Of a stretch of 64,000 nt of DNA, positions 2,971-58,391 are shown piece by piece. Both the position numbers and the translations under genes were made by a program. Each line of letters begins with the position of its first letter. Positions within the stretch are counted from its first letter, which is position 1. The DNA lies in IMG/VR virus record IMGVR_UViG_3300037882_002024, positions 23,711-87,710 of that record. One strand, 5' to 3'. A model generated the notes under the pieces. It saw only the letters and a program-made list of their open reading frames with translations. It had not been told where the DNA came from and ran no database searches. This DNA comes from a virus.

Positions 2971-2975
2971 GAGTT

Positions 2976-4395: not shown

Positions 4396-4413
4396 CCTAT
4401 GGGAGAGCAAAGG

Positions 4414-4656: not shown

Positions 4657-4674
4657 AATAATTTAGCGCGACAG
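4638..4674 (+). repeat. 37-nt direct repeat, copy B, containing the 14-mer motif
   Basis: Second copy of the repeat at 4151-4187, one mismatch. A third, reversed-orientation-like motif form (CTAAATTATTTTAC, 4722-4735) follows 48 nt downstream. Confidence 0.85.
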
Positions 4675-4721
4675 CCCCGTGATTGACGCCGCAACGCCAA
4701 GCGGCTAGAATCCATGTCGCG

Positions 4722-4735
4722 CTAAATTATTTTAC
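4722..4735 (+). repeat. 14-mer motif before terminase small-subunit candidate
   Basis: CTAAATTATTTTAC, ending 13 nt before ATG 4749; CTCAGGGAG between them is the ribosome site. Confidence 0.75.
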
Positions 4736-4748
4736 TCAGGGAGTACCT

Positions 4749-5597
4749 ATGGCAGCCCACGATATTTTGGACGCGCCCGATGTCGAGAAGGAAGTGCCGG
4801 AAGGCATCATCGACGACGGCGTATGCAACGAGTATCACGAGAACGGCAAGCGTTGTCGGCGGCGTTGCATGCGTGGGGAGTTCTACTGTAAGACTCATTC
4901 TAATGTGCCGCGCAGGCAGCAAAAAACGTATATGTACTCGAAGCACTTGCCGACGCACTTGCGTAACGCGTACAAGCGCATTGCGGAGTCGGGCGACCTG
5001 CTAACGCATCAGCACGATATTGCACTGATGCAAGTGCGCTGCAATGAGCTAGCAGGGCGCTTGGCCAGTGGGGAGAGTAACGACCGCTGGCACAGTCTGC
5101 GCGAACAGTTCGAGCGCTTCCGCAATGCGAATCGGATGATGGGTTCCCCGGACGAGGCCACGCGCCAGCAGGCAGCGGTAGAGCAGCGTGAGGCTCTGCA
5201 GGCCGTTGACCAAATTATTTCGTCAGGCGTCGCTGATGAAGCTAATTGGGATGACCTGCAAAACGCGATTAGCTTCAAGAGTGAATTGCAAGCCAAGGAG
5301 TGGAAGCGCCTGCGTGAGATGCAAGCCGTGGCCACTGCTGAGCAGGTGCGCACCCTCGTGTTCGCTATCACCACCAGCGTGCTGCGCAACGTCCCCGACG
5401 CGAATCAGCGACGCGCTATCGTGACCGATATTATGACGCTGCGCGTGTTCGACGTGTCGATTGCGTCACCGTTTCCCGAAGGCATGACTAACGATGGCCG
5501 ACAAGGTAAGCCGCCAGCGGACAATCAACGAGATTCTCAACCCATCGGAGACGCCCGACCCGCTGGGCAGCCCGATGATGGCGCAGCTACTCAATGA
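4749..5597 (+). CDS. Terminase small subunit candidate
   Basis: ATG 4749 follows CAGGGAG and is preferred to TTG 4683. 282 aa. Residues about 26-51 hold a Cys/His cluster: CNEY, GKRCRRRC, GEFYCKTH, a small zinc-site pattern that I associate with phage proteins encoded just before terminase large subunits. The rest is helical with a low-complexity C-terminus rich in D, Q, P. It overlaps the start of terL by 104 bp. Role inferred mainly from position: it would bind phage DNA and deliver it to the large subunit. A DNA-binding protein of other function is possible. Confidence 0.6.
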   Translation: MAAHDILDAPDVEKEVPEGIIDDGVCNEYHENGKRCRRRCMRGEFYCKTHSNVPRRQQKTYMYSKHLPTHLRNAYKRIAESGDLLTHQHDIALMQVRCNELAGRLASGESNDRWHSLREQFERFRNANRMMGSPDEATRQQAAVEQREALQAVDQIISSGVADEANWDDLQNAISFKSELQAKEWKRLREMQAVATAEQVRTLVFAITTSVLRNVPDANQRRAIVTDIMTLRVFDVSIASPFPEGMTNDGRQGKPPADNQRDSQPIGDARPAGQPDDGAATQ

Positions 5598-8502
5598 ATT
5601 TTGCTCGATGATCGAGCCGCCCAGCGAAGAGCTTCTGACGCTGCAGAACAAGTACGAGAACAGTTTCTACGAATTTACCAAGGCCATGTGGCCGATCATC
5701 GAGCCTGCGGCCCCGTGGGTCGATGGCTATATCGTGCAGTGCGAGTGTGAGCATTGGGAAGCCGTCCTACGCGGCGACATCAAGAAGCTCATCATCAATC
5801 AACCTCCACGGCATGGGAAGCCCGTGGACGAACGGGCACTCGTCCTGATGGCCAGCGGCCAAAGGAAGATGCTACGAGATGTTGTTGTTGGCGATGCCGT
5901 TATCACTCACAAGGGGCGCGCCAAGAAAGTAACAGCAGTCTATGAGCAAGGTCTGCTGCCTGTGCTGCGCATCATGACGAACGCCGGGCGGGTAGTGCGC
6001 GCTGCATATGACCACCCTTTCCTAACGGCAGATGGATGGAAGCGCGCCGATCAGCTTCGACTTGGTGATTCTCTGGCCGTGGTGTCGATGTACGGCGGCT
6101 TTGATAAGTCATCGGACTATATGACCGATTACGAGTTCCGCTTGGCTGGCTATTTCATCGGCGACGGTGCCACTAAAATATATAAGTCATCGAGCGCTTG
6201 TAGCATCACATGCAAAGACGCTGTCGAAGGCGCTGACCTTATGGCCTGCGCAGCGGCAATGGGCTTTGCGGTCAACCACACGCCGCGCAACTATCGCTAT
6301 AACTTTTCAGACGGCGCGCGTAGTTGGTTGCATGCTGTAGGGATTGCTGGCCACGGCTCGTACACCAAGCGCGTTCCCGAATTTGTTTTCCGTGGCAGCA
6401 ATGACCAAGTAGCGCAGTTTGTTGGGGCCTACTTTGCGTGTGATGGTTATGTAAGCGCCAAGGGGCGCGGCCGCGAAAAGAGGATGCGAGAGGATTTAGA
6501 GTTTAGCTTTTCGAGTGTCAGTCGTGCGCTTCTTGAGGACGTGCAGCACTTGCTTGCGCGTCTTGGGATCATGATGCGGCTGCGTGCTAAGCGCCAAAAG
6601 ATGGCCGATGGATCGAGCTACGACAGTTTTTTGTTGGTTGCCACCAGCCAAGAAGAGGTTGCTAAATTCGCTGATCGTATTCCCGTTCGGCACACAAAAG
6701 CTACGCGGCTTGCCAAAGAGAGGTTTCAGCGACAGCGCTTTAATGAGGCCTTGCACGCAGACAGCATCGTAGTAATTGAGCCGGACGGCGAAGCCGTTTG
6801 TCGGTGCCTGTCAGTGGACGACGATCAAACGTTTACGGCAAGCGACCTCGTTGTTCACAACAGCATACGCGCAGCGGTAGCGTTCTGCACGTGGACATGG
6901 ACGCAGAAGCCGCACTACCGCTTCATTTACGCAAGCTACTCGGACATGCTGGTAAAGCGGGACAGCATCCGCAGCCGCGACGTTATCCTGCATGAGTGGT
7001 ATCGCAATTTTTGGGGCAACAAATTCCGGCTGAAATACGACCGCAACACGCAGCACGTATTCGAGAATACGCAACGAGGCTTCCGCTTTGCCACCACGCC
7101 CGGCGGCGTGGCGACAGGGGAAGGCGCCGAGATTATCATTGGCGATGACCTTGTGAGCGCCGAGGGGGCACGCAGCAAAGCCGAGAACGAACTCGTGTAC
7201 CGCTTCTGGACACAGACGCTCGGTAGCCGCGTGAACGATCCATCGAACGTGGCGCGCGTGCTTACCATGCAGCGCTTTAACCGTGCTGACATCGCGGGGC
7301 GCATGATCGCCGAGGAGCATGGCTACGAAACGCTCGTGCTTCCCTTCGAGTGCGAGCGTAAGCGCTACTTCCTGCCGACCAAAGAGAATGCTGTTGACAG
7401 GCCCCGTGATGCCATCGTGCCGACGAAGTTGCAGCTAGCCGACCCGGCCTTGATGGATAACCGCAAGGAAGGCGAGCTATTGTGGCCTGAGCGATTTTCG
7501 CCTACGGCGGCGAAAGAGTTCAAGCTGAGTATTGGGGCAGGCGTTCCGGGACAGCTACAGCAGCGTCCTAGCGCTGAAGGCGGCTCGATTGTGCGCTCGG
7601 AGCGCTTCCAGCTATGCTACGAGACGTGGATCGACGGTGCGCTGCACTTCGTTCTAGGCGAGGCCACCGAAGACACGCGCCCGCGCGTCGTGAAGGCGTC
7701 CGATTGCTTTTGGTTTCAGTGCGCTGATACTGCGCAGACAGCTACGACGAGTAATGACCCGACTGCTATCGGCACGTTCTGCCGCACGCCGTCCGGGGAG
7801 TTGATTGTTTACCACATCTTCTGCGAGCATCTGGAGTATCCGGACCAATGGCCCGCGATGTGTGAGCTACGCGTGGGACGCGCTGCATGGGACCGCTACA
7901 ACCAGCGCTGGGCAGTGCGCGGGGCTGCGTTCCCGTGGCCGTGTCCTTTATCGTGGCAGGGCGTCGAGCCGAAGTCTACCGGGGAAAGCCTTATCCAGAC
8001 AGCCCGGCGCGTCGGGATTGCCTTGCACCGCTTGAATGTGTACGCAGGCGACAAGCAGCAGCGTGGCGCGCCATTGGTGATGATGTATGAGCAAGGCATG
8101 GTATACCACTTGGCGTCCGGCCCGTGGCGCGTGGACATGGAAGAACAGATAAGCGAGTTCCCCAATGCAGCCCACGACGACATCTTCGACATCGTGAGCT
8201 ACGCGGCGATGGAGTGCCAAACGATGGCGCTTACCATCTACAAAGGCGACTTGATTTACAACGCTAGCGTTGGCGAAACAATGGCACGCAATGCCGAAGC
8301 GAGCGTACCGGACGTGTTTCGCGACCGTGGAAATGAGAGGCGTGATCGGTTGGCCGAGCCGGTCAAAGAGGCTGTGGGCGAAGTCGATGAGATTGCAGCT
8401 ACACTTGCGGCGCTCGAAGCAGGCTACCAGCGTCAGCAAGTACAGGCCAACGAGCAGACATCGCCGCTTGACGACATCTTGCGTAGGCTGAATGGTGGCT
8501 AA
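5494..8502 (+). CDS. terL: Terminase large subunit precursor with intein
   Basis: 1002 aa precursor of the packaging motor. The N-extein (residues 1-109) ends in PPRHGK and the C-extein resumes with S457, so splicing would rebuild the Walker A motif PPRHGKS. The C-extein has a Walker B-like stretch IIIGDD and an RNase H-like nuclease region: CADTAQT, then DPTAIG, then HDDIFD near the end. The mature protein would be about 655 aa, slightly long for TerL. The start at 5494 lies inside the previous gene. Without splicing the ATPase site is broken, so packaging should depend on the intein. Confidence 0.93.
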   Translation: MADKVSRQRTINEILNPSETPDPLGSPMMAQLLNEFCSMIEPPSEELLTLQNKYENSFYEFTKAMWPIIEPAAPWVDGYIVQCECEHWEAVLRGDIKKLIINQPPRHGKPVDERALVLMASGQRKMLRDVVVGDAVITHKGRAKKVTAVYEQGLLPVLRIMTNAGRVVRAAYDHPFLTADGWKRADQLRLGDSLAVVSMYGGFDKSSDYMTDYEFRLAGYFIGDGATKIYKSSSACSITCKDAVEGADLMACAAAMGFAVNHTPRNYRYNFSDGARSWLHAVGIAGHGSYTKRVPEFVFRGSNDQVAQFVGAYFACDGYVSAKGRGREKRMREDLEFSFSSVSRALLEDVQHLLARLGIMMRLRAKRQKMADGSSYDSFLLVATSQEEVAKFADRIPVRHTKATRLAKERFQRQRFNEALHADSIVVIEPDGEAVCRCLSVDDDQTFTASDLVVHNSIRAAVAFCTWTWTQKPHYRFIYASYSDMLVKRDSIRSRDVILHEWYRNFWGNKFRLKYDRNTQHVFENTQRGFRFATTPGGVATGEGAEIIIGDDLVSAEGARSKAENELVYRFWTQTLGSRVNDPSNVARVLTMQRFNRADIAGRMIAEEHGYETLVLPFECERKRYFLPTKENAVDRPRDAIVPTKLQLADPALMDNRKEGELLWPERFSPTAAKEFKLSIGAGVPGQLQQRPSAEGGSIVRSERFQLCYETWIDGALHFVLGEATEDTRPRVVKASDCFWFQCADTAQTATTSNDPTAIGTFCRTPSGELIVYHIFCEHLEYPDQWPAMCELRVGRAAWDRYNQRWAVRGAAFPWPCPLSWQGVEPKSTGESLIQTARRVGIALHRLNVYAGDKQQRGAPLVMMYEQGMVYHLASGPWRVDMEEQISEFPNAAHDDIFDIVSYAAMECQTMALTIYKGDLIYNASVGETMARNAEASVPDVFRDRGNERRDRLAEPVKEAVGEVDEIAATLAALEAGYQRQQVQANEQTSPLDDILRRLNGG
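5821..6861 (+). other. Intein with LAGLIDADG endonuclease, inserted in terL Walker A
   Basis: 347 residues (110-456 of the precursor). Block A reads PVDERALVLMASG, so position 1 is Pro instead of the usual Cys/Ser. Block B holds YDHPFL. Block F holds CRCLSVDDDQTF, with a Cys at the place used by class 3 inteins. The end is VVHN followed by extein Ser. Two LAGLIDADG-type motifs are seen, AGYFIGDG and VGAYFACDG, both keeping the acidic residue, so the homing endonuclease looks intact. The Trp and Thr of the class 3 signature are not evident, so the splicing class is uncertain. Confidence 0.92.
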
Positions 8503-8512
8503 AATAATTTAG
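8499..8512 (+). repeat. 14-mer motif overlapping terL stop
   Basis: CTAAAATAATTTAG provides the TAA of terL and ends 13 nt before ATG 8526. Confidence 0.8.
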
Positions 8513-8525
8513 TAACGAGGGCACT

Positions 8526-8945
8526 ATGACAGAGCGCATCATCACACAGTACGCGCGTGACGTTTGGATGCAGAACTACGGAAACGAAGCGTCGCTCGCG
8601 CTGCTAGAGCAGATTTTTACAAGTGCAGTGCTTGCGCCGAGCGATGTGCGCAATGTGCTTGAAAGGCCGTATCATATTAGAGGGGCCAGCGTGGTAGTGA
8701 TGGTCAGCGATGGCTTGCCCGGAATTGCGTTGCTCGCGCACAAGAGCCGCAAGGGGCGCAGGTTGTTGCTGATGAATATGTTCGACATCGCAGGCGTGCT
8801 TGCAACCATCGAACGCGAACGGCAAGATGTGCCGCGCGAAGGGCATTACAGTAACTACGAGCGTGAATTACGAAGGGCATTCCGTGGAACTAAGAAACGA
8901 CGAAACGACCACGCGCGTCGCGCTGTGCGACTTGTGCCAGATTAA
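8526..8945 (+). CDS. Unknown 139-aa protein
   Basis: ATG 8526 follows AACGAGGG, directly downstream of the 14-mer at the terL stop. Helical, with a basic C-terminus (GTKKRRNDHARRAVR). Its last 62 bp overlap the next gene in another frame. No domain recognised. Confidence 0.65.
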   Translation: MTERIITQYARDVWMQNYGNEASLALLEQIFTSAVLAPSDVRNVLERPYHIRGASVVVMVSDGLPGIALLAHKSRKGRRLLLMNMFDIAGVLATIERERQDVPREGHYSNYERELRRAFRGTKKRRNDHARRAVRLVPD

Positions 8946-9117
8946 CGCGGCTGCGTTCTACTACAGTCCCAAGAAAATTAACCTTTGCCAGTCGTGCATC
9001 AAGCGGCGCGAGCGCAACCCCAAAACAGTGGTCAACGTGGGGCGCAGCCGGGGCCGCAACGGGCCGTGCCACTGCGGGAGTGGCAAGAAGTTTAAGCATT
9101 GTTGCAAGGGGAAGTAA
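8884..9117 (+). CDS. SEC-C motif zinc protein
   Basis: GTG 8884, with GAAGGG seven bases upstream, is the likeliest start; ATG 8827 is also possible. 77 aa. An N-terminal CDLC and a later CQSC form one zinc site. The C-terminus has GPCHCGSGKKFKHCC, the SEC-C motif seen at the tail of SecA and in many small proteins, where it binds zinc and a protein partner. Its phage role is unknown. It shares a TAATG junction with the next gene. Confidence 0.75.
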   Translation: MELRNDETTTRVALCDLCQINAAAFYYSPKKINLCQSCIKRRERNPKTVVNVGRSRGRNGPCHCGSGKKFKHCCKGK

Positions 9118-9332
9118 TGACGATGCCGCATCTGGCCAACTGCGCGCACCAAGGTGATGGATGGTGCCTCGATTGTGTGCGCCCCCTGTATGAGGCACGT
9201 TGCGATAGCATCAGCAAAGTGTTGAGCGCCGCGACGCTGCTTGCCTTGGTAAATGGTTTCACTCGCGAGCAGGTTGAGCGGCTTACGGTGGCGCAAATTC
9301 AAGAGCTACTAACTGAGAGAGGGTTAGCATGA
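9117..9332 (+). CDS. Small Cys/His protein
   Basis: ATG 9117 sits in a TAATG junction. 71 aa. The N-terminal NCAHQGDGWCLDC could coordinate zinc; the rest is a helical pair ending ELLTERGLA. Coupled by ATGA to the next gene. No family recognised. Confidence 0.65.
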   Translation: MTMPHLANCAHQGDGWCLDCVRPLYEARCDSISKVLSAATLLALVNGFTREQVERLTVAQIQELLTERGLA

Positions 9333-9736
9333 AGAGTGTTCAAGACTTTTGCGCTGCGATGGAGCGCTATCGCGTTAAAGGCGTGGATGGTGAAGACGGC
9401 AAAGGCGCGCGCAATGGGTTGTTTCATATCCCGATGCAGCTAGGCAAAGACCGCTACAACCTTGTCGTGGTGTGCAGCGACGCAATGCGCTGGATGGAAG
9501 ACGGCTTGCAAGGCCAGTCTTTCGACCACGTGTCGATCAGCTTACAGAACAGTCCGCGTTGGCCAACGCACGCCGAGATAAAGATTGCGCGCGACCTTGT
9601 GTTTGGCCCCAACGAAGTCGTTGTGCAGTTCCATCCGACCAAGGGGCGCACGCCAAGCGCCAAGCTGGTGATTCATTTGTGGTGTGCTTTGAATCCTGAC
9701 GCTGTTGCCGTTCCTGACCCCAAGGCCGTGAACTAA
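9329..9736 (+). CDS. DUF7694-like phage protein
   Basis: ATGA overlap with the upstream gene. 135 aa. It has the order of features I know from a widespread uncharacterised phage family: an NGLFHIP strand, VVVCSDAMRW, FDHVSISLQN, a helix, then EVVVQFHP and a final HLW. Function of the family is unknown. The call is by pattern resemblance. Confidence 0.6.
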   Translation: MKSVQDFCAAMERYRVKGVDGEDGKGARNGLFHIPMQLGKDRYNLVVVCSDAMRWMEDGLQGQSFDHVSISLQNSPRWPTHAEIKIARDLVFGPNEVVVQFHPTKGRTPSAKLVIHLWCALNPDAVAVPDPKAVN

Positions 9737-9743
9737 CACGCGG

Positions 9744-9757
9744 CTAAAATCTTTTAG
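9744..9757 (+). repeat. 14-mer motif
   Basis: CTAAAATCTTTTAG (a perfect CTAAAA/TTTTAG pair around TC) ends 10 nt before ATG 9768. Confidence 0.8.
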
Positions 9758-9767
9758 TGAGCAGTCG

Positions 9768-10481
9768 ATGCAGAGCCGCGAAGTAGCCGCAAGTGAGCGC
9801 CCGATTATTTTGTGTGGGGCCTGTGGCAGCCAGCAAGTGATATTCTCTTCTGCGCAAGTGGTGTGCGCCAACTGTGCCGTCTCGCTGGCGGTGCTAGGGG
9901 AAGCGGGGCGCATGACCCTTAACGAGAAGGCCATCAACTTGCGTCCGCTGATTGATTGCGGGCGCATTACTTATGCGCGTAGCGGCCAACGCGTCATGTA
10001 TATTTGGAATAACCAGCCACGTCGCATTGCCGCGCATGACAGCGAGCCACTTGAGGCTACTGCTGTTGAGTTAGAGACAATTGAGGACGCAGGTGCGTTG
10101 CTCACTAGCCACAAAATTCAGATTGCAGCATTCTTTTCTGCTTGCCAACAGCGCGCCGAGCATGTAGCAGAGCTAGGCGGGCGCATCACTATCGTGACAT
10201 CGCCACCGGAATCGAGCAAGGGCTGCGGCGATGTGCGCATGATTGTTGAGGCGCACACGCATGAACCAACAGACGACCGCAACAGCGGCGTGGTGTTCCG
10301 CACATTCCGGGGGTGCCCGCGCTGCGGTGAGGCGCACCAGATGGTAGCGTTTTGGCGTTATGCACGGCCAACAGTTGTTGATGGGAGAGCCAAGGTGTCG
10401 CACTTCGCGAGTTGCCCTAGCACTGGCGAGCCGATAAACCTAATCACTAACGGGAGAAGCAAAGGTGAAAAAATCGCATGA
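9768..10481 (+). CDS. Zinc-ribbon protein of unknown role
   Basis: 237 aa. The N-terminal CGACG with CANC about 17 residues on is a zinc ribbon. A second site, CPRCGEAH with a later CPSTG, lies near the C-terminus. Central part is mixed alpha/beta. Ribbons of this kind occur in nucleic-acid or protein adaptors. It overlaps the next gene by 17 bp. Confidence 0.65.
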   Translation: MQSREVAASERPIILCGACGSQQVIFSSAQVVCANCAVSLAVLGEAGRMTLNEKAINLRPLIDCGRITYARSGQRVMYIWNNQPRRIAAHDSEPLEATAVELETIEDAGALLTSHKIQIAAFFSACQQRAEHVAELGGRITIVTSPPESSKGCGDVRMIVEAHTHEPTDDRNSGVVFRTFRGCPRCGEAHQMVAFWRYARPTVVDGRAKVSHFASCPSTGEPINLITNGRSKGEKIA

Positions 10482-11110: not shown

Positions 11111-11613
11111 CGAAGGTAAAATTTTTTAGTGGCATGCTGCTAGGCGTCATGCTAGCAACCGCCGCGATGGTATCCGTAGACTTGCGCGCTCAGCCGAAGG
11201 GCAAAGAGCCAGAGCTTAAGGTGGTGGTGCCGGTTGACTTGCCGAAGTCGCCGCCCGCCGGACCGAAGGATGACGCGCTCTATGTGTGGCAACAGCCAGA
11301 GCGTGGCTATCAGTCCGTCATCATCTTGAAGGCTACGGCACCAGATCGGCTAGAATGCGGCCTGCTCGTGCCGATTACGCTGCGACTCAAAGACATCGAG
11401 GCCGTGCCGGGGAGAGAGCAAGACATTATGAAGGCGCTTGGTGACGAGGCCGTAGGGCGCCTGATGACTGCAGCGCTGGCAGGGCGCGTGGAAGACGGCT
11501 CAACCTACGCTGATTTTTGGGCAGGCAAGGAACGCGGCTGGCTGTCCGATTCGATGCTTAAGAGCGGCCTGTATCGCAAGAAGCAAGTCGTCATTCCGCC
11601 AGCGAAAAAATAG
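11107..11613 (+). CDS. Exported protein, possibly SNase-like fold
   Basis: Start is either ATG 11107 (ATGA overlap) or ATG 11134, just after GTAAAATTTTTTAG (11116-11129). Either gives a signal-peptide-like N-terminus (MLLGVMLATAAMV, then a DLRAQ cleavage region). The C-terminal 90 residues have an order similar to thermonuclease folds: ITLRLKDIEAV, EAVGRLM, ADFWAGKERGW and SMLKSGLYRKK. The usual catalytic Arg/Glu set is not convincing, so activity is doubtful. Followed by a strong terminator. Confidence 0.6.
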   Translation: MTKVKFFSGMLLGVMLATAAMVSVDLRAQPKGKEPELKVVVPVDLPKSPPAGPKDDALYVWQQPERGYQSVIILKATAPDRLECGLLVPITLRLKDIEAVPGREQDIMKALGDEAVGRLMTAALAGRVEDGSTYADFWAGKERGWLSDSMLKSGLYRKKQVVIPPAKK

Positions 11614-11639
11614 CGCAGGGCAGGCAACAAGGTAATCGA

Positions 11640-11669
11640 GAAGCGGCCACATGGCCGCTTCTTTTTTTT
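11640..11669 (+). terminator. Rho-independent terminator
   Basis: GAAGCGGCCA, loop CA, TGGCCGCTTC, then eight T. A 10-bp perfect stem with an ideal T tract. The next ribosome site (TTGGAG) starts right after it. Confidence 0.93.
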
Positions 11670-11679
11670 GGAGTTCATA

Positions 11680-12471
11680 ATGATTCGTTGGCTACTGCGC
11701 GTCACAGGCCTTGCCTTCCTGATTCGGCGCACCGAGTTTAACCGTCCGCGCTTGAGCTTGCAGCTAATCAAGTTTGGCAACGATAGCGAACTCACAGGCC
11801 GTTGGACGCTGTGCGTGCTTAACCAGTTCGTGCGCCTGTGGGATTCACGCACGCCTTTGGTCGATCCTGATGGCATGCTCGACGGCTATGGCGTGTATTA
11901 CTGCAGCGATTTGAAGACGCTCGTATTATGCTGGGGTTCCATACGCTCGCGTGGCTCAAGGCATTGGCGTATTCCGATGCCGTGGCAACGACGACGCCTG
12001 ACGCACGAGGCCTTGCTGAAAGACGGTACGTGGCGCAAGCTCGCGTGGATTGAGGGCTGGTTGTCATGGCGCGGGCTGCGTTACGCGCAGAGTCCGTGGA
12101 AACCAGAAGAGCTTGCAGCCCTTGCAGGCCAGCAGCCGGACCCGCCTTACCCCGATGTGGTGCCTCAGTGGGTAAACGTGAGGCCGTTCTTTTATCGCTT
12201 GCGCAGTGGAGCGCATCAAGATACAGTAGCCACCATCACCTGTGACCGATCGAAGTATACTTGGGCGCTATTCTGTTGGTTGCGTTTGCCTATCGTGACG
12301 AGGTGCCATCGTGCGCTGTGGTTCAGCTTAGCTGACGAGATTGGCGCAGGCGTTGGGAGTTATAAGGGCGGCACCGTTGGCGCAGGCGATTATCTTAAGC
12401 GCGGCGAGTTGCCTTTGCTGGGCGCGCTGCGCATCGAGATTGAATGGTCGAAGCGCCATCGTTTCGGGTAA
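11680..12471 (+). CDS. Unknown 263-aa protein
   Basis: ATG 11680 has TTGGAG eight bases upstream. Basic and Trp-rich, with a hydrophobic basic start (MIRWLLRVTGLAFLIRR) that might touch a membrane. No catalytic motif recognised. It is the first gene after a terminator, but no clear promoter was found between them, so it may rely on read-through. Confidence 0.6.
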   Translation: MIRWLLRVTGLAFLIRRTEFNRPRLSLQLIKFGNDSELTGRWTLCVLNQFVRLWDSRTPLVDPDGMLDGYGVYYCSDLKTLVLCWGSIRSRGSRHWRIPMPWQRRRLTHEALLKDGTWRKLAWIEGWLSWRGLRYAQSPWKPEELAALAGQQPDPPYPDVVPQWVNVRPFFYRLRSGAHQDTVATITCDRSKYTWALFCWLRLPIVTRCHRALWFSLADEIGAGVGSYKGGTVGAGDYLKRGELPLLGALRIEIEWSKRHRFG

Positions 12472-48856: not shown

Positions 48857-50884
48857 ATGAGCAAGGTCGCCGAAGCGTATGTAATCTTTCGGGCCGACAC
48901 GAAAGAGTTCAAGAAAGAAATCAAGACCATCCCGGCAGCGGTGAAAGATGCTATCGGCAAGATCGGCGCCGATAGCATTGTCAAGCCTGCCGTCAAAAAC
49001 ATTGGGCGTGCCCTGCGCGATGAACTGCTTAAGTCTGTTGACGGCTTCGCGGAAAAATTCAAGAAGACACTTGGCACTGGTGGCGGCCTAATTGAGCGTC
49101 TGAAAAAGCAAGTTGAAAAGGCTGTCAACGTCGTGACGCCTACCACCACGAATCTGGCCAAAAACTTTGCTGGCATGTTGATGAACGGCGTCAAGAAAGC
49201 CGACGAGATTTTACGTAAGGCTGCAAGCAACCTCGAAGCCAAGCTCCGTGCAGCAGCGCAGGCGCTTGGCGTCAAATTCGAGAAGGCCCAGCAAGCCCCG
49301 AAGACACCAACCCAATCTACTTCCACGGCACCCAAGGCGCCAAAAAAAACAGAGGAACAAAAGGCCGCAGAGAAAGCCGACAAAGATGCGGCCAAGCAGC
49401 GCGCCAGCAATGACAGACAGGCAGAGCAAGCGCAAGACAAAAGACGCAAGGATGCACAAAAAGAACGCGAGAGGGAGGCCAAAGCACGCACCGACGAAAG
49501 ACAAGCCCGCAAAGACAGTGTCAAGTCGCAAGCTGCAGGCGCGCTAGGCCTCACAGGAGTCGGCGAGCTTGGCGGCACCATGCTGGGCAAAGCTGGTCCA
49601 TTCGCGGCCATTTTAGCGGGAGCCTTGTTAGCGCTAAACGCCGTACAGCAGCTAAAAAAGGCCATCACGGCTGCGGTTGAAGCCAGTAAAGCAGACTTCG
49701 AGCTAAAATACGCCGCGAAAGGTCCGGGCCGCTCTGGCTGGTCGCCAGAGCAGATGAAGAAGATGAACGAGGCCTTCCGTGGCGACACAGCCTTCGGCAA
49801 CAAGGAAGTGACGCAAGCGCAAACGCAATTGGCGCGCATGCCGAACATTAAAGGCGACCAATTCAAGGGCGCCCTGAAAGCTGCTGGCGACTTGTCGGCT
49901 GCGATGGGCATGGAGCTACCCGCCGCCGCGAAAGCTGTTGGCGACGCGCTTAATGACCCGATGAAGGTTGCGGAGCAAGGCCTCGAAGAATACGGCATCA
50001 TGCTTACACAAGCGCAGAAGAACCAGATCAAAAACGCCGAAGCAGCGCGCGATTTTGCAGGGGCACAGCAGCTCGTTTTGGATGCCTTCAAGCAATACGG
50101 CGGCGCTGCCCAAGAATTTGCTAAAGGCCCCGAAGGAGCCTTTAAGAAGTTCGAGACGTCGGTTGAGAATCTTCGCGAAAAGATTGGCTCGAAGATTCTC
50201 CCGATTCTTACCAAGATCATCGACCATATCACCATGATGATCGACTTCACGTCTGCCGCCTTCGACGACATGGGTGGCGCTGCAAACGTGTTTTGGTCCA
50301 ACTTCAAATGGCGCATGTCGAGCGCACTTGACGGCATCATTGATTTTTTCTCGCAGATGCGCGCCGTCGCTTCGGGGACATGGAGTTCGATGGTGGCAGG
50401 CGCCGAGGAAGCGTGGGACCAAATCGTAGACGCCTTCGATCCTAGCACGAATGGCACCGGGCGCACCATCGGCGGGCAGATGAGCAAGGCCTTCAACGAG
50501 GCCTATCAAAAGGTCGTTGACAAGTCGAACATCGGGGCCTCAGACCGCACGCAGCGTCTCAAGAAAGAGGCGATGGACATCACGATGGAGTTCATGCGCA
50601 AACACAACCTTTTGCCGAGCCAAAAGGGCATTGATAAATTCAACGAGAAGCCAGACGCAGCTAACAACAATTACGTAAGTCGCAAGCCGTTTCAGTTTGA
50701 GTTTACTGGCATGACGGATATGTACAAGAAAATCCAAGAGCAGCTTATTCCGTCAGAACAAGTGCAGATGGAGCGCATGCAACTAAAGGCCGCTGAGATG
50801 GCTGTCAATGAACAACAGAAAGCCAACGGATTCTTGGCGCGCATCGACCAAGCGATGCAGAACAAAGGCGTCGTGTTTAACTAA
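48857..50884 (+). CDS. Tape measure protein
   Basis: 675 aa. Helical throughout, Lys/Ala/Gln-rich (coiled-coil) region about residues 150-235, a hydrophobic stretch about 245-275, then AAAKAVGDALNDP and GPEGAFKKFETSVENLREKIG, typical of siphovirus tape measures. At about 0.15 nm per residue the tail would be about 100 nm. The start follows GCGGAGATGACGA. The large minus-strand frame here is a shadow. Confidence 0.88.
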   Translation: MSKVAEAYVIFRADTKEFKKEIKTIPAAVKDAIGKIGADSIVKPAVKNIGRALRDELLKSVDGFAEKFKKTLGTGGGLIERLKKQVEKAVNVVTPTTTNLAKNFAGMLMNGVKKADEILRKAASNLEAKLRAAAQALGVKFEKAQQAPKTPTQSTSTAPKAPKKTEEQKAAEKADKDAAKQRASNDRQAEQAQDKRRKDAQKEREREAKARTDERQARKDSVKSQAAGALGLTGVGELGGTMLGKAGPFAAILAGALLALNAVQQLKKAITAAVEASKADFELKYAAKGPGRSGWSPEQMKKMNEAFRGDTAFGNKEVTQAQTQLARMPNIKGDQFKGALKAAGDLSAAMGMELPAAAKAVGDALNDPMKVAEQGLEEYGIMLTQAQKNQIKNAEAARDFAGAQQLVLDAFKQYGGAAQEFAKGPEGAFKKFETSVENLREKIGSKILPILTKIIDHITMMIDFTSAAFDDMGGAANVFWSNFKWRMSSALDGIIDFFSQMRAVASGTWSSMVAGAEEAWDQIVDAFDPSTNGTGRTIGGQMSKAFNEAYQKVVDKSNIGASDRTQRLKKEAMDITMEFMRKHNLLPSQKGIDKFNEKPDAANNNYVSRKPFQFEFTGMTDMYKKIQEQLIPSEQVQMERMQLKAAEMAVNEQQKANGFLARIDQAMQNKGVVFN

Positions 50885-50904: not shown

Positions 50905-51780
50905 ATGCCGGTAGTATACGAAGAGTACGAAGGAAGCCCGACAGTGACGATGGACCGCAAGGGCGGTCATGGCAAGCGCATCATCAAGATTCCTTGGGAA
51001 TCGGTGGACGCAGCCATCTACGAGCTATTCCCCGGTGCGCGCTTTGGCTATCCGTACAACGCTGCGATGCCGGGCTTTCCGTGGCTGCGTTGCCAGAGCG
51101 TCGATATTGCGCCCTTCGATCCGGGCAACCCAAGGCTATCGGCCAACGGAATTACGTCGTACTATCCAACGGGCGCACTGCTTACCATCAACTACGCGCC
51201 GAACGAATGGGACGACAACGACGACAGCCCCGGCAGCCCGGAGAACACCACCTTCGTTGAGCATCGCACAAGCTACTCTGGCGAGTTCCTCACGTGGCCG
51301 GGGCAAGGCGTGCGCTGGGCCGTAGGCACTGATGGGACGGCCATCGAAGGCTCTGGCTCTGGCGACAAGCGCTACGGCGTCAACGAAGACATCAAGGTCG
51401 GGATTCTTATTCCGATCATCGAGCATGAGACGACGTGGAATTTCGTCCGGCAGCCGAATTGGGGCGCCGTGCGGCGCTGTCTTGGACGCGTCAACAAAGC
51501 GACGTACATGGGCGCCTATCCTGAAACGCTGTTGTTTCTTGGCGCGTCGGCCTCGCGTACTTTCTCCACCACCGGCTACCCGTGGTGGAAGCTCACTTAC
51601 AAGTTTCAAGAGAAGTGCTACAATTTCGATGAAGTCAAGAAGCCCGAACAAGCGCAGGGGTGGAATCACTTCCTGCGACCTAACGGGGCCAACACGAAGT
51701 TTGAGCGCATGATTCGTGGCAACGGTGACCCAATTTATGGCATCGTTCAAATGCGACAACTTTTCGGCGGTGCAGCGTAA
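50905..51780 (+). CDS. Tail tip/baseplate-region protein
   Basis: 291 aa after AGCGAGCAAGCA. Tyr/Trp/Gly-rich beta sequence (PYNAAMPGFPWLRC, TLLFLGASASRTFS, YPWWKLTYKFQEK). Directly after the tape measure, where distal tail proteins are usually encoded, but no specific family was recognised. TAATG junction with the next gene. Confidence 0.6.
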   Translation: MPVVYEEYEGSPTVTMDRKGGHGKRIIKIPWESVDAAIYELFPGARFGYPYNAAMPGFPWLRCQSVDIAPFDPGNPRLSANGITSYYPTGALLTINYAPNEWDDNDDSPGSPENTTFVEHRTSYSGEFLTWPGQGVRWAVGTDGTAIEGSGSGDKRYGVNEDIKVGILIPIIEHETTWNFVRQPNWGAVRRCLGRVNKATYMGAYPETLLFLGASASRTFSTTGYPWWKLTYKFQEKCYNFDEVKKPEQAQGWNHFLRPNGANTKFERMIRGNGDPIYGIVQMRQLFGGAA

Positions 51781-52334
51781 TGAAGCCAATTTCCGATGTG
51801 CGCCAAGGCGAGCCGATCACGGCGCGCGGCGAGAACGAAGTACGCCAAGCGCTGCGCATGGCTGTCAATCCTGTGCGTACTGACGGCACCGAAGGCGTTC
51901 ACAACGGGGCGTTTAGCGCCAAGGGGCATCGTGAGGCGCTAATTTTGATGGTGCGGATTGTGGCATTCACGGTGCCCGAGGGCGCAGCCGCTTACGCATC
52001 GAGCAATTTGTTTAACGCGAAGGTCCAAGTGTGGGACGGCACAATCAAAGATTGGGCTGATGACCCTTCGGGGCGCGAGGTATCTGTCGTCCCGCTTTTC
52101 AACGGCGTTGGTTACCAACCACTAGAGATTGACCGCAAGCCAATTCCGGTTCGCTATCGCACTGACCTGCAAGCCTATGCTCCAATTGCATGGAGTGAAG
52201 TCGCTGTCGTGGTCCCTACAAGCGAAGAAATTGACTCGCAAGGCATGCAGCCGGGGAAGCGCCTTGCGTACAATTCTGACGCAAGCGATTGGGTCATTGT
52301 CAGCGACGTTTACATCCTTCGCATCGGCAACTAA
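51780..52334 (+). CDS. Unknown tail-region protein
   Basis: 184 aa. Starts MKPISDVRQGEPITARGENEV; the middle (LILMVRIVAFTVPEG, NAKVQVWDGTIKDWADD) is beta-rich. Joined to the upstream gene by TAATG. The stop lies in CTAAAATAATTTAG (52331-52344). Confidence 0.6.
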   Translation: MKPISDVRQGEPITARGENEVRQALRMAVNPVRTDGTEGVHNGAFSAKGHREALILMVRIVAFTVPEGAAAYASSNLFNAKVQVWDGTIKDWADDPSGREVSVVPLFNGVGYQPLEIDRKPIPVRYRTDLQAYAPIAWSEVAVVVPTSEEIDSQGMQPGKRLAYNSDASDWVIVSDVYILRIGN

Positions 52335-52348: not shown

Positions 52349-53788
52349 ATGAGCAGTTCTCGCATCAATCACTTTCGCGGCCTCTTGGTAGGCGCACGCA
52401 GCGGCAAGCCAGTCTATGCGGCGCGTCAGTGCGCGCGCTCTGGCTCGTCGTCGTCCGGCTCTTCGCAGGCAGCGCCTGATACCACATGCGAGTGCCCACC
52501 AGCAGTCTACGGCGCTCCACGGCAATACCGCTTAATGATTCCGGCGCTTGCCAATGCTACCTGCGACAAGTGCGTTAGCATGGGCGGGAAAATGCTCGTG
52601 CTAACCTATGCAGGCGTTGAGGAAGGCGATTGCATTTGGAAGAGTGAGCCGCAGACAGATGGCTGCGACATGGTAGACGACGAAGGCGCGCCGAAGGCTT
52701 CGTATCAATGGTATCTACGCCAGAACTCTGCCACGTCCACGATCAGCAGCGACGGGTGGGCGCCTTCTTACGCGCGGCCGCTCTGGACCGGGGCCTCACG
52801 CTGGCACGGCGCCGTTCTCTGCACACTGACGACGGACGATGGTAAATGCGCTTACCCTGCGCAAATCACTGCCTACCCCGTCGTTGATGCGGTGGCAGGT
52901 AAGTGCAAGCCGCTCGCGGGATTCTTTGATGGCGTTTTAGTGGGCGCGCGCAACGGCCTGCCTGTGTATGCAGCGGGGCCTTGCAATTTTGGCGGCTCAT
53001 CGCCATCTAGCAACTCAACAAATGCGCAGCCCGTCCCAGTTAACACCAAGCACATCGCGTGGCTTGTTGGCGCGCGTGAAGGGAAGCCGATATACGCGCT
53101 GCATTGCTGCGAAGGCTCTGGTGTTTCAAGATCGGCCAGCGCTTCGTTAAGCCAATCGTTGTCACAGTCAGCGTCTTTGTCAGACAGCGCCTCACTATCC
53201 AAGTCAGCGTCGCCTAGCCAGTCCTTGAGCGAATCAGCTTCGGCCTCAGATAGCGCCAGCATGCAATCAAGTGGATTTTCTGGCAGCCGATCGTCAGATG
53301 CGTCGCCATTTTCCGAATCAATGTCTAGTTCAGGCGAAAACTCTTCTGATTCCGATTCGCTGTCTTACTCGTTTGCTTCGGAATCCGAGAGCGCATCAGC
53401 GAGCTATTCATCAAGCTCTTTGCAAATTTCTAGCTCTTATGTTCCGCCGCCACCAGTGCCAATTTTTTGTGGCTGCGATAGCATGCCGGGAACAATCGGA
53501 ATTACCTTTGCCGCAATCGCATGCGCACCAAGCATCAGCGGACAATCGTTTACGCTGACCTATAACGGAAGCATTTTCACCTATTCTGGCGGCGGCGTCA
53601 TAATCACCATCACAAGCAGTTGCGAAGTGTCAGTTATTTCGGACAACTGTAACTTTCCGATGTCGGCGCTGCTGATTGTGTGCATTCCTGTATACTCTGG
53701 CGGGATGGGGAATGTTTCAACAGACCTGATTGTAGCTCCGGGGTGCGCTTGTGCGCCGGGCGCCTCAGTCGATTTTACGCTTTACTAA
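52349..53788 (+). CDS. Serine-rich tail-tip or adhesin-like protein
   Basis: 479 aa. A unit LVGARxGxPVYA occurs three times (LLVGARSGKPVYAA, VLVGARNGLPVYAA, WLVGAREGKPIYA), separating Cys-bearing domains (CECPP, CDKC). Residues about 265-365 are Ser/Ala/Glu low complexity with SxS spacing. The C-terminal 110 residues are hydrophobic beta with Cys pairs. Glycosyltransferase and methyltransferase genes follow, so the serine stretch is a candidate acceptor. No SD before ATG; see the motif at 52331. Confidence 0.75.
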   Translation: MSSSRINHFRGLLVGARSGKPVYAARQCARSGSSSSGSSQAAPDTTCECPPAVYGAPRQYRLMIPALANATCDKCVSMGGKMLVLTYAGVEEGDCIWKSEPQTDGCDMVDDEGAPKASYQWYLRQNSATSTISSDGWAPSYARPLWTGASRWHGAVLCTLTTDDGKCAYPAQITAYPVVDAVAGKCKPLAGFFDGVLVGARNGLPVYAAGPCNFGGSSPSSNSTNAQPVPVNTKHIAWLVGAREGKPIYALHCCEGSGVSRSASASLSQSLSQSASLSDSASLSKSASPSQSLSESASASDSASMQSSGFSGSRSSDASPFSESMSSSGENSSDSDSLSYSFASESESASASYSSSSLQISSSYVPPPPVPIFCGCDSMPGTIGITFAAIACAPSISGQSFTLTYNGSIFTYSGGGVIITITSSCEVSVISDNCNFPMSALLIVCIPVYSGGMGNVSTDLIVAPGCACAPGASVDFTLY

Positions 53789-53801
53789 CCTGTGTAAAAA
53801 T

Positions 53802-55139
53802 ATGAGACCATGCGTCGAACTGCATGCTGAACCGGACATGCAAAATTGTGAAACCTGTCGCCGTTACTATACGGACGAAAGGGCGCGTCGCGCAATGGAT
53901 GAGATGGCGCGAAGGCGTCAGCCATGCGAGTATTTTGGCGACACGCCGCTCGTGCGCGGCGAAGATTGTTGCCCGCGCAAGTGGCGCCACCCTTGTGACC
54001 TTTACGGCGCGTGCGTGCGTGACGACGCGCAGAACAAAGACAACCTTCCTTCGTGTACCATGTGCATTCACCATACGCCGCGCGGTCAAGCAGTTGCGCA
54101 CGCGCCGCAGAAAGTCGTGCTCGTTGATCGGCACGCGCCCGGCGACGCTGTGGTGCTAAGCGCCGCCATCGAGTCGCTGCACATGGCCTATCCGGGCCGC
54201 TACATCACTGACGTGCAGAGCGCAGGCCAAGCGATGTGGCAATTCAACCCGCACGTGCGGTCCTTCACGCCGGACGAAACGACTAAAATAATTAAGTTGC
54301 GCTACGAGTTAATTCAGCAGAGTAACCAGCGCCCGCTGCATTTCATGGAAGCCTACTGTGACAGCGTCGGCGCCGCGCTCGGGGTTAATCTGCCGTGCCT
54401 CGTCAACACTCCACGGCTCTACCTGTCACACGAAGAGATGGGATGGGCCTCGCAGGTGCAAGAGCTTACGGGCAGCGCGACGCCGTACATGATCGTGAAC
54501 GCAGGCTATAAATCAGACTTCACGGCTAAGTTTTGGGGCGCGAGCAACTATCAAGCCGTTGTTGATCGGCTGCGCGGGAAAGTGCTGTTCGTGCAGATCG
54601 GCAGCCTTGAAGCAACACATACGCACGCGCCGCTCAATCATGTTGTTGACTTGCGCGGCCAAACGGATGTACGCCAATTGATGCGTCTTGTTCATAACTC
54701 ACGAGGCGGGCTTGGCCCATCGACGTTTTTGCAACATTTGTGCGCAGCCTTTGGCAAGCCTTACGCGCTGCTTGCAGGCGCCCGTGAGCCAACTATTTGG
54801 CAGGCCTACCCGCGTCAGATCATGTTCTCGACTGTCGGTCAGTTGCCATGCTGCAATAATGGCGCGTGCTGGCTGTCACGCACCGTGGCGCTGAATGACA
54901 ATGTTGGCGGCCACATCAAATGCGCTGCTTGTGGTAAACAAAACTACAATCAAAAGCTCGAAGAGTTTGTATGCGAGCAATGCAATGCGACCAAAGGCCA
55001 GTGGGGACTAATGGATGAATCCCTGTGCAAAAGGCCTGTTGTTTCGCAAAATGAGTTTGTTCCGCAATGCCTTGATATGATCCGGCCTGAGCAAGTAGCC
55101 GACGCTGCACTCAACGCTTACCAACTTGGAGAAAGATGA
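53802..55139 (+). CDS. GT9-like glycosyltransferase with Cys-rich N-terminus
   Basis: 445 aa (ATG 53838 is an alternative start). About 100 Cys-rich residues (MQNCETCRRYY onward), then VVLVDRHAPGDAVVLSAAI, AYPGRYITDVQSAG, and GGLGPSTFLQHLCAAFGKP, the order of heptosyltransferase-type (GT9) proteins. A second Cys cluster (KCAACGK, CEQCN) precedes the end. Likely transfers a sugar; acceptor unknown. Coupled to the methyltransferase gene. Confidence 0.75.
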   Translation: MRPCVELHAEPDMQNCETCRRYYTDERARRAMDEMARRRQPCEYFGDTPLVRGEDCCPRKWRHPCDLYGACVRDDAQNKDNLPSCTMCIHHTPRGQAVAHAPQKVVLVDRHAPGDAVVLSAAIESLHMAYPGRYITDVQSAGQAMWQFNPHVRSFTPDETTKIIKLRYELIQQSNQRPLHFMEAYCDSVGAALGVNLPCLVNTPRLYLSHEEMGWASQVQELTGSATPYMIVNAGYKSDFTAKFWGASNYQAVVDRLRGKVLFVQIGSLEATHTHAPLNHVVDLRGQTDVRQLMRLVHNSRGGLGPSTFLQHLCAAFGKPYALLAGAREPTIWQAYPRQIMFSTVGQLPCCNNGACWLSRTVALNDNVGGHIKCAACGKQNYNQKLEEFVCEQCNATKGQWGLMDESLCKRPVVSQNEFVPQCLDMIRPEQVADAALNAYQLGER

Positions 55140-55981
55140 TGTTCAAGACTTTTTTCACGACACGCCGTGATTTTGATTCTGTGTGGATGCAGCACTGGCG
55201 CTCAATTATCAACTTGCGCCCGGATCGTTTTCACCGGAAGGATTGGGAGAACGCCGCTGTTATTGAAACTATTCAATCAAGTGGCTGCTACGGTCACGGC
55301 AAGCGTGGCATCGGCTTCGGCGTCGGCGACGAAATTCTTAGCGAGCTTTTCGTTACAGACGGTTGCCAGATCACGGCCACTGACCTACTCGGCGACGATT
55401 GGGGCACAACGCATAATGGTATGAATCGCTTACGAGGCAAGCAAAATATCGACGTGCGCATTGTCGATATGAATTGGCTGCGTGGGGAAAGTCATCGTCA
55501 GGCCGTGGAGAGTGAAGCCTATGATTTTTCGTGGAGCGTCTGCTCAGCAGACCACTGCGGCAGCGTATGGCTAACCAAGCGATTCCTGCTGAACCAAATG
55601 AATGTGCTGCGCCCCGGTGGAATCGCCGTTCACACGGCCGAGTATTCCACCGATGGGCGCATGCCTCGCCAAGGCGGCACGAGCTTCATGACCGCGCATG
55701 ACGTCATGGACCTGCAAAGCCTCGCATACCGCGCAGGCTACGAAATGGCGCCAGTCGATTGGTTTTTTGGGGACACGTTTGAGGATCACATCGTTGACTA
55801 CCAAGGCGACGGCGCGGTCCATATCAAGAGTGGTACCGAAAACTCATGGGCCACCTGCGTCTTGTTTGCGCTGCGCAAGCGGGTCGAAGGCGAGTTATGG
55901 CTAAGCTCCGACGAGGCTGCAATGCGTGCGCTGTTGGCTGACACCGACGCCAAGCGTCGCCTTGGCCTTCTTGGCGGCTAA
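55136..55981 (+). CDS. SAM-dependent methyltransferase
   Basis: 281 aa. GIGFGVGDEILSELF is a glycine-rich SAM loop, followed by ITATDLLGDDW (acidic residue after strand 2) and MNVLRPGGIAVHTAEY, typical of class I enzymes. Such genes beside glycosyltransferases usually modify sugars. ATGA overlap with the GT gene; stop within CTAAAATTTTTTAG (55978-55991). Confidence 0.75.
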   Translation: MMFKTFFTTRRDFDSVWMQHWRSIINLRPDRFHRKDWENAAVIETIQSSGCYGHGKRGIGFGVGDEILSELFVTDGCQITATDLLGDDWGTTHNGMNRLRGKQNIDVRIVDMNWLRGESHRQAVESEAYDFSWSVCSADHCGSVWLTKRFLLNQMNVLRPGGIAVHTAEYSTDGRMPRQGGTSFMTAHDVMDLQSLAYRAGYEMAPVDWFFGDTFEDHIVDYQGDGAVHIKSGTENSWATCVLFALRKRVEGELWLSSDEAAMRALLADTDAKRRLGLLGG

Positions 55982-55991
55982 AATTTTTTAG
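55978..55991 (+). repeat. 14-mer motif
   Basis: CTAAAATTTTTTAG; supplies the stop and lies 14 nt before ATG 56006. Confidence 0.8.
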
Positions 55992-56005
55992 CAAGCGAGC
56001 AGGCA

Positions 56006-57568
56006 ATGCAACCGAAGCGAACGCTGATCAAATTTTTTCATGGCCTCGGCGACGTGATGCAATTCACGTCAGTGCTGAGGCATCTCAAAAAGTATCGTAG
56101 CGATTGGGCCATCGACATCCTCACAACACGCGGCAAGCACAGCGCCTTCGTTGGCCTGTGCGAGAACGTGTTCATTGACGGGATCGACAACGCCAAGATT
56201 GACGAAGGCTCGTACCACAACAAATTCGACGTGATGTGGTATGAGAACTACAACGGCTACACAGATCGGCCGAATAGCAAGGTCACCAACTCGCTAGCCG
56301 AAGAGTTCCGCGTCGATTACGACAAAACGCTCGCACGCTACGAGATTCGCTACAGCGCTGCAGCCTACCAGCGCGCGCACGATTGGCTCGTGCAGACAGC
56401 AGGCGCCACGAAGCGCCGCGACGGACGTCTCAATTCAGTCATCATCCACTACGAAGGCAACACGAGTGCCGCCAAGAAAAACCTGAACCACAGCACTATC
56501 GGCAAGCTCTGTAAGCGGCTGCTAGCCTGTGGCTTTGTGCCGGTTATCCTTGATTGGGACAATCGCTCGCCACTACCCGATGGAAAGGCTATCCACAAGC
56601 CAAGCGTCGGGGCGGGCGACCTGTGGGGTGAGTTCGGCAGTGGCGACGCCGCCATGATCGCGGCGCTCATTGAAGCTAGCTCGCTATTCGTCGGGATAGA
56701 CTCCGGGCCGGGCAAGGTAGCCAGCGCTTGCGACACGCTCAATATCTCTGTGTGGACCGGGCACCATCCAATTCAATTTCATGACCCCAGCCCTAGCACG
56801 TTGCACCTAGTCCCGCGTAAGCAGATTGCGCCTGCCGATAAACCAGAGATATTGGCTTATTTTATAGATCATTATAATCACGCCGTTTACGACGACTTAG
56901 ATTCGGAGCTATTACGACAGGTCGGCAAGGCGTTAGGCGAAGAAAATTTTGCCGCCGTCGAAGAGTGCAGCAGCCACAAAGATTCTTGGTACTACGACGC
57001 GAATAAGCAAGAAGGCCTCGACTACATGGCCTACGGCGACTGGCAGAAAGAGTACGGGCGATGGCTAGTGAACGTGTTAGCGCTCGACGGCAAATATGCT
57101 GTCGATGTCGGCTGCGCGTGCGGGGCGCTGACACAGAGCTTGGCCGAAGCAGGAGCGCAGGTCGATGGCATCGACGTTGACGAGTACATGATTCGCCTTG
57201 GCAGAGAACGCTTCACAGCGTGCCGCTTGTTTGTCGGCGACGCCATGAACCTGCACATGGTCCGCGATGAAGTGGCTGACCTGCACCATTCCAGTATGTG
57301 CCTGCACGAGATGCGCGAAAGCCAAGTCATGGTGGCGCTGGAAGAGGCTGCGCGCGTGTTGCGCCCCGGCGGCATCATGGTGGCTGTTCTGCGCACAGAA
57401 GGGGCGCCGCATCGCAATTCGGCCATCAAGCCTCTGGCGTGGTGGGAAGACAAGGCCTCGATGGTCGGCTTGTGGCACTCAGCGCATCACGCGCGTCGCC
57501 TTACTGAGAGCATGCCTAGTCGCTTTCGGGCGCTCGGCTGGAGCCTGCTTGTCGCCGCCAAGAAATAG
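56006..57568 (+). CDS. GT9-like glycosyltransferase / methyltransferase fusion
   Basis: 520 aa. Residues 1-290: IKFFHGLGDVMQFTSVLRHL, SVIIHYEGN and LFVGIDSGPGKVASAC, a GT9-type pattern. Residues about 330-520: YAVDVGCACGALTQSL, GIDVDEYMIRLGRER, ARVLRPGGIMVAVL, a class I methyltransferase. Two steps (add a sugar, methylate it) may thus be joined in one protein. AGCGAGCAGGCA is the ribosome site. Confidence 0.8.
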   Translation: MQPKRTLIKFFHGLGDVMQFTSVLRHLKKYRSDWAIDILTTRGKHSAFVGLCENVFIDGIDNAKIDEGSYHNKFDVMWYENYNGYTDRPNSKVTNSLAEEFRVDYDKTLARYEIRYSAAAYQRAHDWLVQTAGATKRRDGRLNSVIIHYEGNTSAAKKNLNHSTIGKLCKRLLACGFVPVILDWDNRSPLPDGKAIHKPSVGAGDLWGEFGSGDAAMIAALIEASSLFVGIDSGPGKVASACDTLNISVWTGHHPIQFHDPSPSTLHLVPRKQIAPADKPEILAYFIDHYNHAVYDDLDSELLRQVGKALGEENFAAVEECSSHKDSWYYDANKQEGLDYMAYGDWQKEYGRWLVNVLALDGKYAVDVGCACGALTQSLAEAGAQVDGIDVDEYMIRLGRERFTACRLFVGDAMNLHMVRDEVADLHHSSMCLHEMRESQVMVALEEAARVLRPGGIMVAVLRTEGAPHRNSAIKPLAWWEDKASMVGLWHSAHHARRLTESMPSRFRALGWSLLVAAKK

Positions 57569-57809: not shown

Positions 57810-58391
57810 ATGAGAATTTATTTTTGCGGTCCCAGCGCGAGCGGCAAGACAAGCGTGGCCAACGAGCTTGCTAAGCGCCTTGGATTGCCACAGGTGCCGA
57901 GCGCAGCGCGGCAAGTTTTGGCAGCGCTTGGCTGCACACCGCAGCAGGTACGTGACCGCAACGACGAAGCAAGTTCCACTTATCAGCACGCCGTCTTCGC
58001 AACACAGCTAGCCAATGAGAAAGCAGCCGACCAAGGGCGCGGTTTTATTAGCGACCGCTGCATTGATGTGCTTGTTTACGCGTCGTTTCAGAGCCGCGCC
58101 GCTCACTCTATTTACATGACACAAGAGTTCGCCGATTATGGCGCAAGCCTTTGCTCAGCCGACGCCTTGGTTTTTTTGTTTGCGCCGTGGCGAGAAGGGG
58201 TTGAGGCGGCGCAACAAACGCAAGAGCGTTCCATGTGGCTGCAATGGGACGAGCTTAATCGGTGGTACGGCGGGGCGCGCGTGATGCTAGACTGTTGCGC
58301 CATTCCGTATGTGCCCGTGGAAAGTGAAAATTTCGAGGAGCGCCTAGCTACGGTATGGAATTTTACAAACCAAAAGTGGCCTTGGAAGTAG
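57810..58391 (+). CDS. P-loop kinase, NadR/AAA_28-like
   Basis: ATG 57810 after GAGGAAAG. 193 aa. Walker A GPSASGKTSVANELAKRLG (residues 7-25), then an Arg in PSAARQ and ISDRCIDVLVYASF, where the NadR-kinase-like family has its DR signature. Members phosphorylate ribosyl-nicotinamide or nucleotides. Could support NAD or nucleotide supply during infection. Substrate cannot be read. Confidence 0.65.
   Translation: MRIYFCGPSASGKTSVANELAKRLGLPQVPSAARQVLAALGCTPQQVRDRNDEASSTYQHAVFATQLANEKAADQGRGFISDRCIDVLVYASFQSRAAHSIYMTQEFADYGASLCSADALVFLFAPWREGVEAAQQTQERSMWLQWDELNRWYGGARVMLDCCAIPYVPVESENFEERLATVWNFTNQKWPWK

Follow-up and report, generated by a model that had tools for sequence, protein, structure and literature searches.

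The occurrence of a glycosyltransferase family, here termed GT9a, near serine-rich genes in many viruses that are unrelated to one another, as well as in a small number of bacteria, suggests, from sequence, an unrecognised cassette that modifies serines with sugar. It is rather probable that the cassette is dedicated to protein O-glycosylation, in which GT9a would act on Ser tracts and a GT9b–methyltransferase fusion protein would finish the glycan. Virion glycosylation and protein O-heptosylation are already known, and the GT9a family with its Ser-rich partner appears to be a new variant; the literature searched contained no description of this pairing, which does not prove its absence elsewhere.

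The Ser-rich protein and its gene neighborhood

The window, i.e., the whole stretch of 64,000 nucleotides analyzed here, comprises bases 23711–87710 of an 87,710-base IMG/VR virus record. Reading of the ORFs confirmed the order and coordinates of four genes on the same strand (52349–53788, 53751–55139, 55136–55981, and 56006–57568) given in a preliminary description. The first of these, the Ser-rich gene, follows the tape-measure gene and two unknown genes. The features are, in window positions:

48857..50884, + strand: tail tape-measure protein (PHROG tape-measure families, best E 1.7e-14)
50905..51780, + strand: tail-region protein of 291 aa (by position)
51780..52334, + strand: tail-region protein of 184 aa (by position)
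52349..53788, + strand: Ser-rich protein of 479 aa with 21 Cys, the proposed glycosylation substrate
53117..53428, + strand: Ser-rich low-complexity stretch, aa 257–360 (51 Ser/104)
53751..55139, + strand: GT9a, predicted ADP-heptosyltransferase-type glycosyltransferase (Pfam Glyco_transf_9, 1.7e-6; AlphaFold/Foldseek; family alignment)
55136..55981, + strand: probable class I SAM methyltransferase, weak (Methyltransf_11, E 0.015, below the cut-off)
56006..57568, + strand: GT9b–methyltransferase fusion (GT9, 21.4 bits; Methyltransf_25, 3.1e-17)

The 291-aa protein gave no Pfam, PHROG, or NCBIfam match, and the 184-aa protein gave no significant match in the same collections. The Ser-rich protein had been called a tip protein and an adhesin; both names derive solely from the gene order downstream of the tape measure, and a location at the tip is unsupported. 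A protein of the AAA_28-type P-loop kinase-like group (Pfam 4.1e-18) is encoded after the sugar genes, at 57810–58391.

The stretch at residues 257–360 contains 51 Ser among 104 residues, with Ala (12) and Leu (7) next in number and Glu (5) minor, so that its earlier characterization as Ser/Ala/Glu low complexity is loose. The best 50-aa window of the 479-aa protein contains 26 Ser and all other plus-strand ORFs of the 87.7-kb record reach at most 9; the Ser stretch is not due to chance. Since all six Ser codons are used in it, the stretch is kept as an amino acid sequence and not as a DNA repeat, and an origin from a DNA microsatellite was ruled out by the same mixture of codons. A Ser tract comes after each of the three copies (from aa 13, 197, and 239) of a short motif, [LV]VGARxGxP[VI]YA...C. 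A similar layout was found in the viral locus L011, where LVGSHTG..LPLYFLGLACCGGPSSSSS precedes GT9a. Direct searches of phage records and IMG/VR detected no relatives of the Ser-rich protein, and a pattern search with the repeat motif returned two contigs, both unrelated.

The third ORF (281 aa) matched Methyltransf_11 with 16.3 bits against a cut-off of 21.2, its single-sequence AlphaFold model had a pLDDT of 32, and no homologue was found among the fetched loci. Thus, of two methyltransferase-like domains reported earlier, the one in the fourth ORF is clear, whereas that in the third is weak. Homologues of the GT9b–methyltransferase protein adjoin GT9a in three loci (L012, L027, and the bacterial L009). 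A methylated sugar on the Ser-rich protein is plausible, because a methyltransferase is fused to GT9b and a like fusion lies next to GT9a in L009 and L027.

The virus likely infects a planctomycete, because an upstream protein (11540–11998 of locus L007, which overlaps window positions 1–942) carries TIGR02996 (37.8 bits, above the cut-off), a domain known mainly in Gemmata-like planctomycetes. The suggested shielding from antibodies or proteases found no support.

The GT9a family and its predicted fold

GT9a scored 28.0 bits against Pfam Glyco_transf_9, above the 22-bit cut-off, whereas GT9b just misses it with 21.4 bits. The GT9a ORF has two candidate starts, GTG at 53751 and ATG at 53802. 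Alignments built up from two viral relatives identified 29 viral loci and then 55 more, giving 84 IMG/VR loci in total. Features that are invariant, or nearly so, across the family include PGD toward the N-terminal end of the domain, the motif GxKxDxTxKxW, and, at the C-terminus, the signature CCx4CW...C...PxC, whose near-invariant cysteines in the window GT9a (367, 368, 373, 426, and 440) lie ahead of the last helix. Asp132 is also conserved.

The AlphaFold model of GT9a, calculated from an alignment of 31 sequences, had pLDDT values of mostly 92–98 at residues 121–340, lower at ~181–200, with 234 residues at pLDDT of at least 90. Foldseek matched this model to GT9 protein 3tov (1.3e-11), WaaF 1psw (2.4e-10), and TibC 4rap/4rb4 (~1e-9), as well as WaaC. 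The modeled fold is GT-B of the heptosyltransferase type. LPS heptosyltransferase profiles and the TibC/Aah profile (TIGR04414) matched members of the GT9a family, and GT9a profiles in turn scored equally well against the two groups. As the matches to family members were far below the cut-offs, GT9a is akin to both groups and a member of neither. The window GT9a has a Cys-rich N-terminal extension (53751–54100) and an additional zinc-ribbon-like insert (CAAC...CEQC; 54909–55010) missing from the other 30 aligned relatives; the extension is predicted with low confidence.

In the GT9a tree, the window sequence, L011, and L027 form a supported clade (SH-aLRT 97), and in each a Ser-rich gene is directly upstream of GT9a. 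Three family members (from the window, L013, and L266) had no match among 50,697 phage records, so that cultivated phages could hardly have revealed the cassette; one member had no match among 72,556 plasmids.

Linkage of GT9a with Ser-rich genes

An ORF was counted as strongly Ser-rich if a 30-aa segment of it held 19 Ser or more. In the first set, 16 of 29 viral GT9a loci had such an ORF. Of 41 control viral loci chosen through a random 15-mer (391 kb, not host- or GC-matched), none had one (p 2.7e-8). A prediction of ~40% positive loci was recorded before the second set was counted, and 18 of 55 new loci (33%) were positive, which is below the prediction and well above the control (p 1.1e-5). 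Dereplication at 70% identity left 21 of 45 GT9a clusters positive (p 7e-8). Because the random control was not host-matched, positions within the positive loci were also tested. The median distance between GT9a and the nearest Ser-rich ORF was 421 nt, whereas 2,665 nt would result if positions were random (P 0.0015, an approximate value since the loci are related); in 17 of the 34 positive loci this ORF was within 300 nt. TCN and AGY codons were mixed in 12 of 13 Ser tracts checked, indicating that selection acts on the amino acid. No homologues of the window tail proteins were detected in other GT9a loci, and the pairing therefore does not simply reflect descent of whole phages.

Joint conservation of the Ser stretch and the glycosyltransferase genes in relatives had been proposed as a check, and glycosyltransferases conserved where the Ser protein is missing had been named as a refutation. 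This refutation applies in part: 34 of the 84 loci in the two sets contain a strongly Ser-rich ORF, but the other 50, many though not all of which are fragments, lack one within ~10 kb. With no Ser-rich gene near GT9a in more than half of the loci, the pairing is frequent without being universal.

Ser-less loci such as L286 and L303, which contain a GT9b–GT9a pair, would be explained if the GT9 and methyltransferase genes altered a surface glycan of the host (the LPS core), e.g., as a barrier to superinfection, with the Ser tracts being unmodified flexible linkers that are common in these phages by chance. This main rival to an O-glycosylation cassette is also consistent with the equal closeness of GT9a to WaaC/WaaF/RfaQ and TibC and with the location of some GT9a genes within broader sugar clusters (L286, L303, L017, L018). 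We regard it as unlikely, because GT9a and Ser-rich genes are closer within loci than chance predicts and because GT9a also lies, even in the opposite orientation, amid several Ser-tract genes in what is apparently the virion region (L266, L269, L319). Near the pair in L286, a UDP-galactopyranose mutase-like ORF was recognized by eye (5900–6985).

In L005, L028, L034, L037, and L319, a single GT9a has several virion-region proteins with Ser runs in its vicinity. These loci would fit a GT9a that targets several virion proteins at short Ser/Thr sites, the long tracts being the most visible of them and the window Ser protein one target among others. That arrangement is quite improbable, since the window encodes a single plus-strand protein with a strong Ser tract and the bacterial pairs described below have one obvious partner. 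Among individual loci, L027 has a 2,440-aa viral ORF (2607–9926) with Gly-rich stretches and at least 60 consecutive serines that ends 75 nt before the GT9a match, and an ORF in L005 (17391–17876) is built of repeated SSTVHAHDSSTV-type units. In the L022 record, a Ser-codon tract lies ~20 kb from GT9a; it was found with a WSN-codon pattern, which is too degenerate for a clean poly-Ser test. The reverse search from (TCN)8 yielded 120 loci, mainly antisense or short frames and none with GT9a, and was too noisy.

GT9a is sporadic in bacteria, in ~1–2% of genomes. It was present in 5/289 and 5/388 sampled Verrucomicrobiota genomes, in 4/291 sampled Armatimonadota genomes, and in 1/288 genomes of the class of the Kiritimatiellia genome; a first bacterial scan with a two-sequence GT9a alignment gave no match. 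In three of the four Armatimonadota carriers, a Ser-rich gene is within the cassette. In L219 (a 3.3-Mb contig), a Tat-signal-like 95-aa protein with a poly-Ser tail (9232–9516) is encoded 5 nt before GT9a, and a 400-kb sample of the same genome contained no ORF reaching 19 Ser/30. The tail is almost pure poly-Ser, and a lipid anchor is possible. A similar protein is encoded 10 nt before GT9a in L218. The gene order in L009 is ADP-heptose 6-epimerase (TIGR02197, 338 bits, above the cut-off), Ser-rich protein, GT9b/methyltransferase, and GT9a, which links GT9a to an ADP-heptose epimerase gene in this bacterium. The C-terminus of the L009 Ser-rich protein (2022–2882) looks like a Hint/intein-type domain after the Ser stretch (SCLVG... 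FANGILHHNK), with weak matches to intein-type profiles.

No phage genes are visible in these three cassettes, and neither phage nor LPS genes directly adjoin the GT9a/poly-Ser pair in L218 and L219. Modification of a host surface glycan fails to explain such isolated pairs with a poly-Ser secreted protein. In the Verrucomicrobiota matches examined, a clearly paired Ser-rich gene was not found: L008 and L213 had none in the ~20 kb read around GT9a, and L010 offered only a small Ser-Lys ORF, at a distance of 4 kb and on the opposite strand. Three other carriers of this phylum (L214, L215, and L216) looked prophage-like by eye.

Viral and bacterial GT9a copies interleave in the tree. Together with the sporadic bacterial distribution, this would also be expected if glycosyltransferase genes that move horizontally had come to rest in this neighborhood by chance, without a functional tie to the Ser protein. 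The enrichment recurred in both locus sets and again in Armatimonadota, which makes such a chance origin very improbable.

A heptose adenylyltransferase profile matched in all seven bacterial GT9a carriers tested, two of them slightly below the cut-off, and a gene of this type, also below the cut-off, is near GT9a in phage L017. The virus record of the window yielded no gene of the heptose pathway.

Related systems and the proposed reaction

The bacterial autotransporter heptosyltransferases (BAHT) TibC and Aah (NCBIfam TIGR04414; PDB 4RAP, 4RB4) share with GT9a the predicted GT-B ADP-heptose-transferase fold and a C-terminal cysteine cluster. Their substrate gene is adjacent and their acceptors are serines; GT9a is likened to them in both respects, the acceptors here being predicted. 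TibC heptosylates serines of a bacterial adhesin and needs both a four-Cys iron finger (Cys 339, 342, 358, and 370) and the base Asp110 (eLife 2014, PMC4358343). Beside its conserved Asp132, GT9a has a Cys cluster before the last helix that is comparable to this iron finger but differs in spacing. The N-terminal β-barrel of TibC (~97 residues) is absent, as GT9a relatives mostly begin directly at the glycosyltransferase domain, and GT9a is paired with a low-complexity protein rich in Ser instead of a β-helical autotransporter. The window GT9a had no match to TIGR04414; its best-scoring relative reached 35.4 bits (5.6e-9, C-lobe only) against a 200-bit cut-off. Membership of GT9a in the BAHT family was ruled out by this cut-off and by the lack of the β-barrel.

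The LPS heptosyltransferases WaaC, WaaF, and RfaQ (GT9, PF01075) resemble GT9a in fold, in a GD-type N-terminal motif, and in weak profile matches. To our knowledge they do not have the CCx4CW...C...PxC signature, and their genes show linkage to LPS genes and not to Ser-rich ones. In Gram-positive bacteria, the serine-rich repeat (SRR) adhesins and the Ser-Asp repeat proteins glycosylated by Sdg enzymes combine a long stalk rich in Ser and linked glycosyltransferases, as is proposed here; these systems use other enzyme families and another secretion route. Inspection by eye of the ORFs neighboring the window Ser-rich gene revealed neither accessory Sec genes (SecA2/SecY2) nor GtfA/GtfB. Mycobacteriophages with glycosylated virions, e.g., Maravista, for which glycosylation is predicted from its glycosyltransferases, likewise have phage-encoded enzymes thought to decorate a virion protein, as is proposed for the window; the hosts differ, the predicted target in Maravista is the capsid, and no Ser-rich partner is named in the abstract of that study (PMC11256854).

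The earlier proposal, in which a Ser-rich protein of the phage is glycosylated by phage enzymes, gains support from the enrichment of GT9a near Ser-rich genes in unrelated phages and in bacteria and from the TibC-related predicted fold, and it is retained here stripped of the tip, adhesin, and shield. We infer that the Ser-rich protein would belong to the virion, in the distal part of the tail, and that GT9a would be a soluble ADP-heptose-transferase-type enzyme with a GT-B fold. GT9a would transfer the first sugar, probably heptose drawn from the ADP-heptose pool of the host, onto serines of the Ser tract in the host cytoplasm before assembly, and GT9b and the methyltransferase domains would extend and/or methylate the glycan. 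The glycosylated Ser product may form a stiff, hydrophilic, and protease-resistant coat or stalk.

A broader proposal, for which we consider the chances to be slightly less than even, is that GT9a proteins with the CCx4CW...C...PxC signature constitute a new class of poly-serine O-heptosyltransferases that act in portable cassettes of 2–4 genes and give rise to virions with heptosylated Ser stalks. Such a cassette would consist of a Ser-rich protein and GT9a, with or without the GT9b–methyltransferase protein, and would be common to uncultured phages of many lineages and some bacteria. Protein O-heptosylation comes so far from a few enterobacterial autotransporters. If the proposal is true, this modification would extend to uncultured phages and Armatimonadota, where an enzyme–substrate pair may be as compact as the 95-aa poly-Ser protein and single enzyme of L219, and it would provide phages with a route to decorate their tail proteins.
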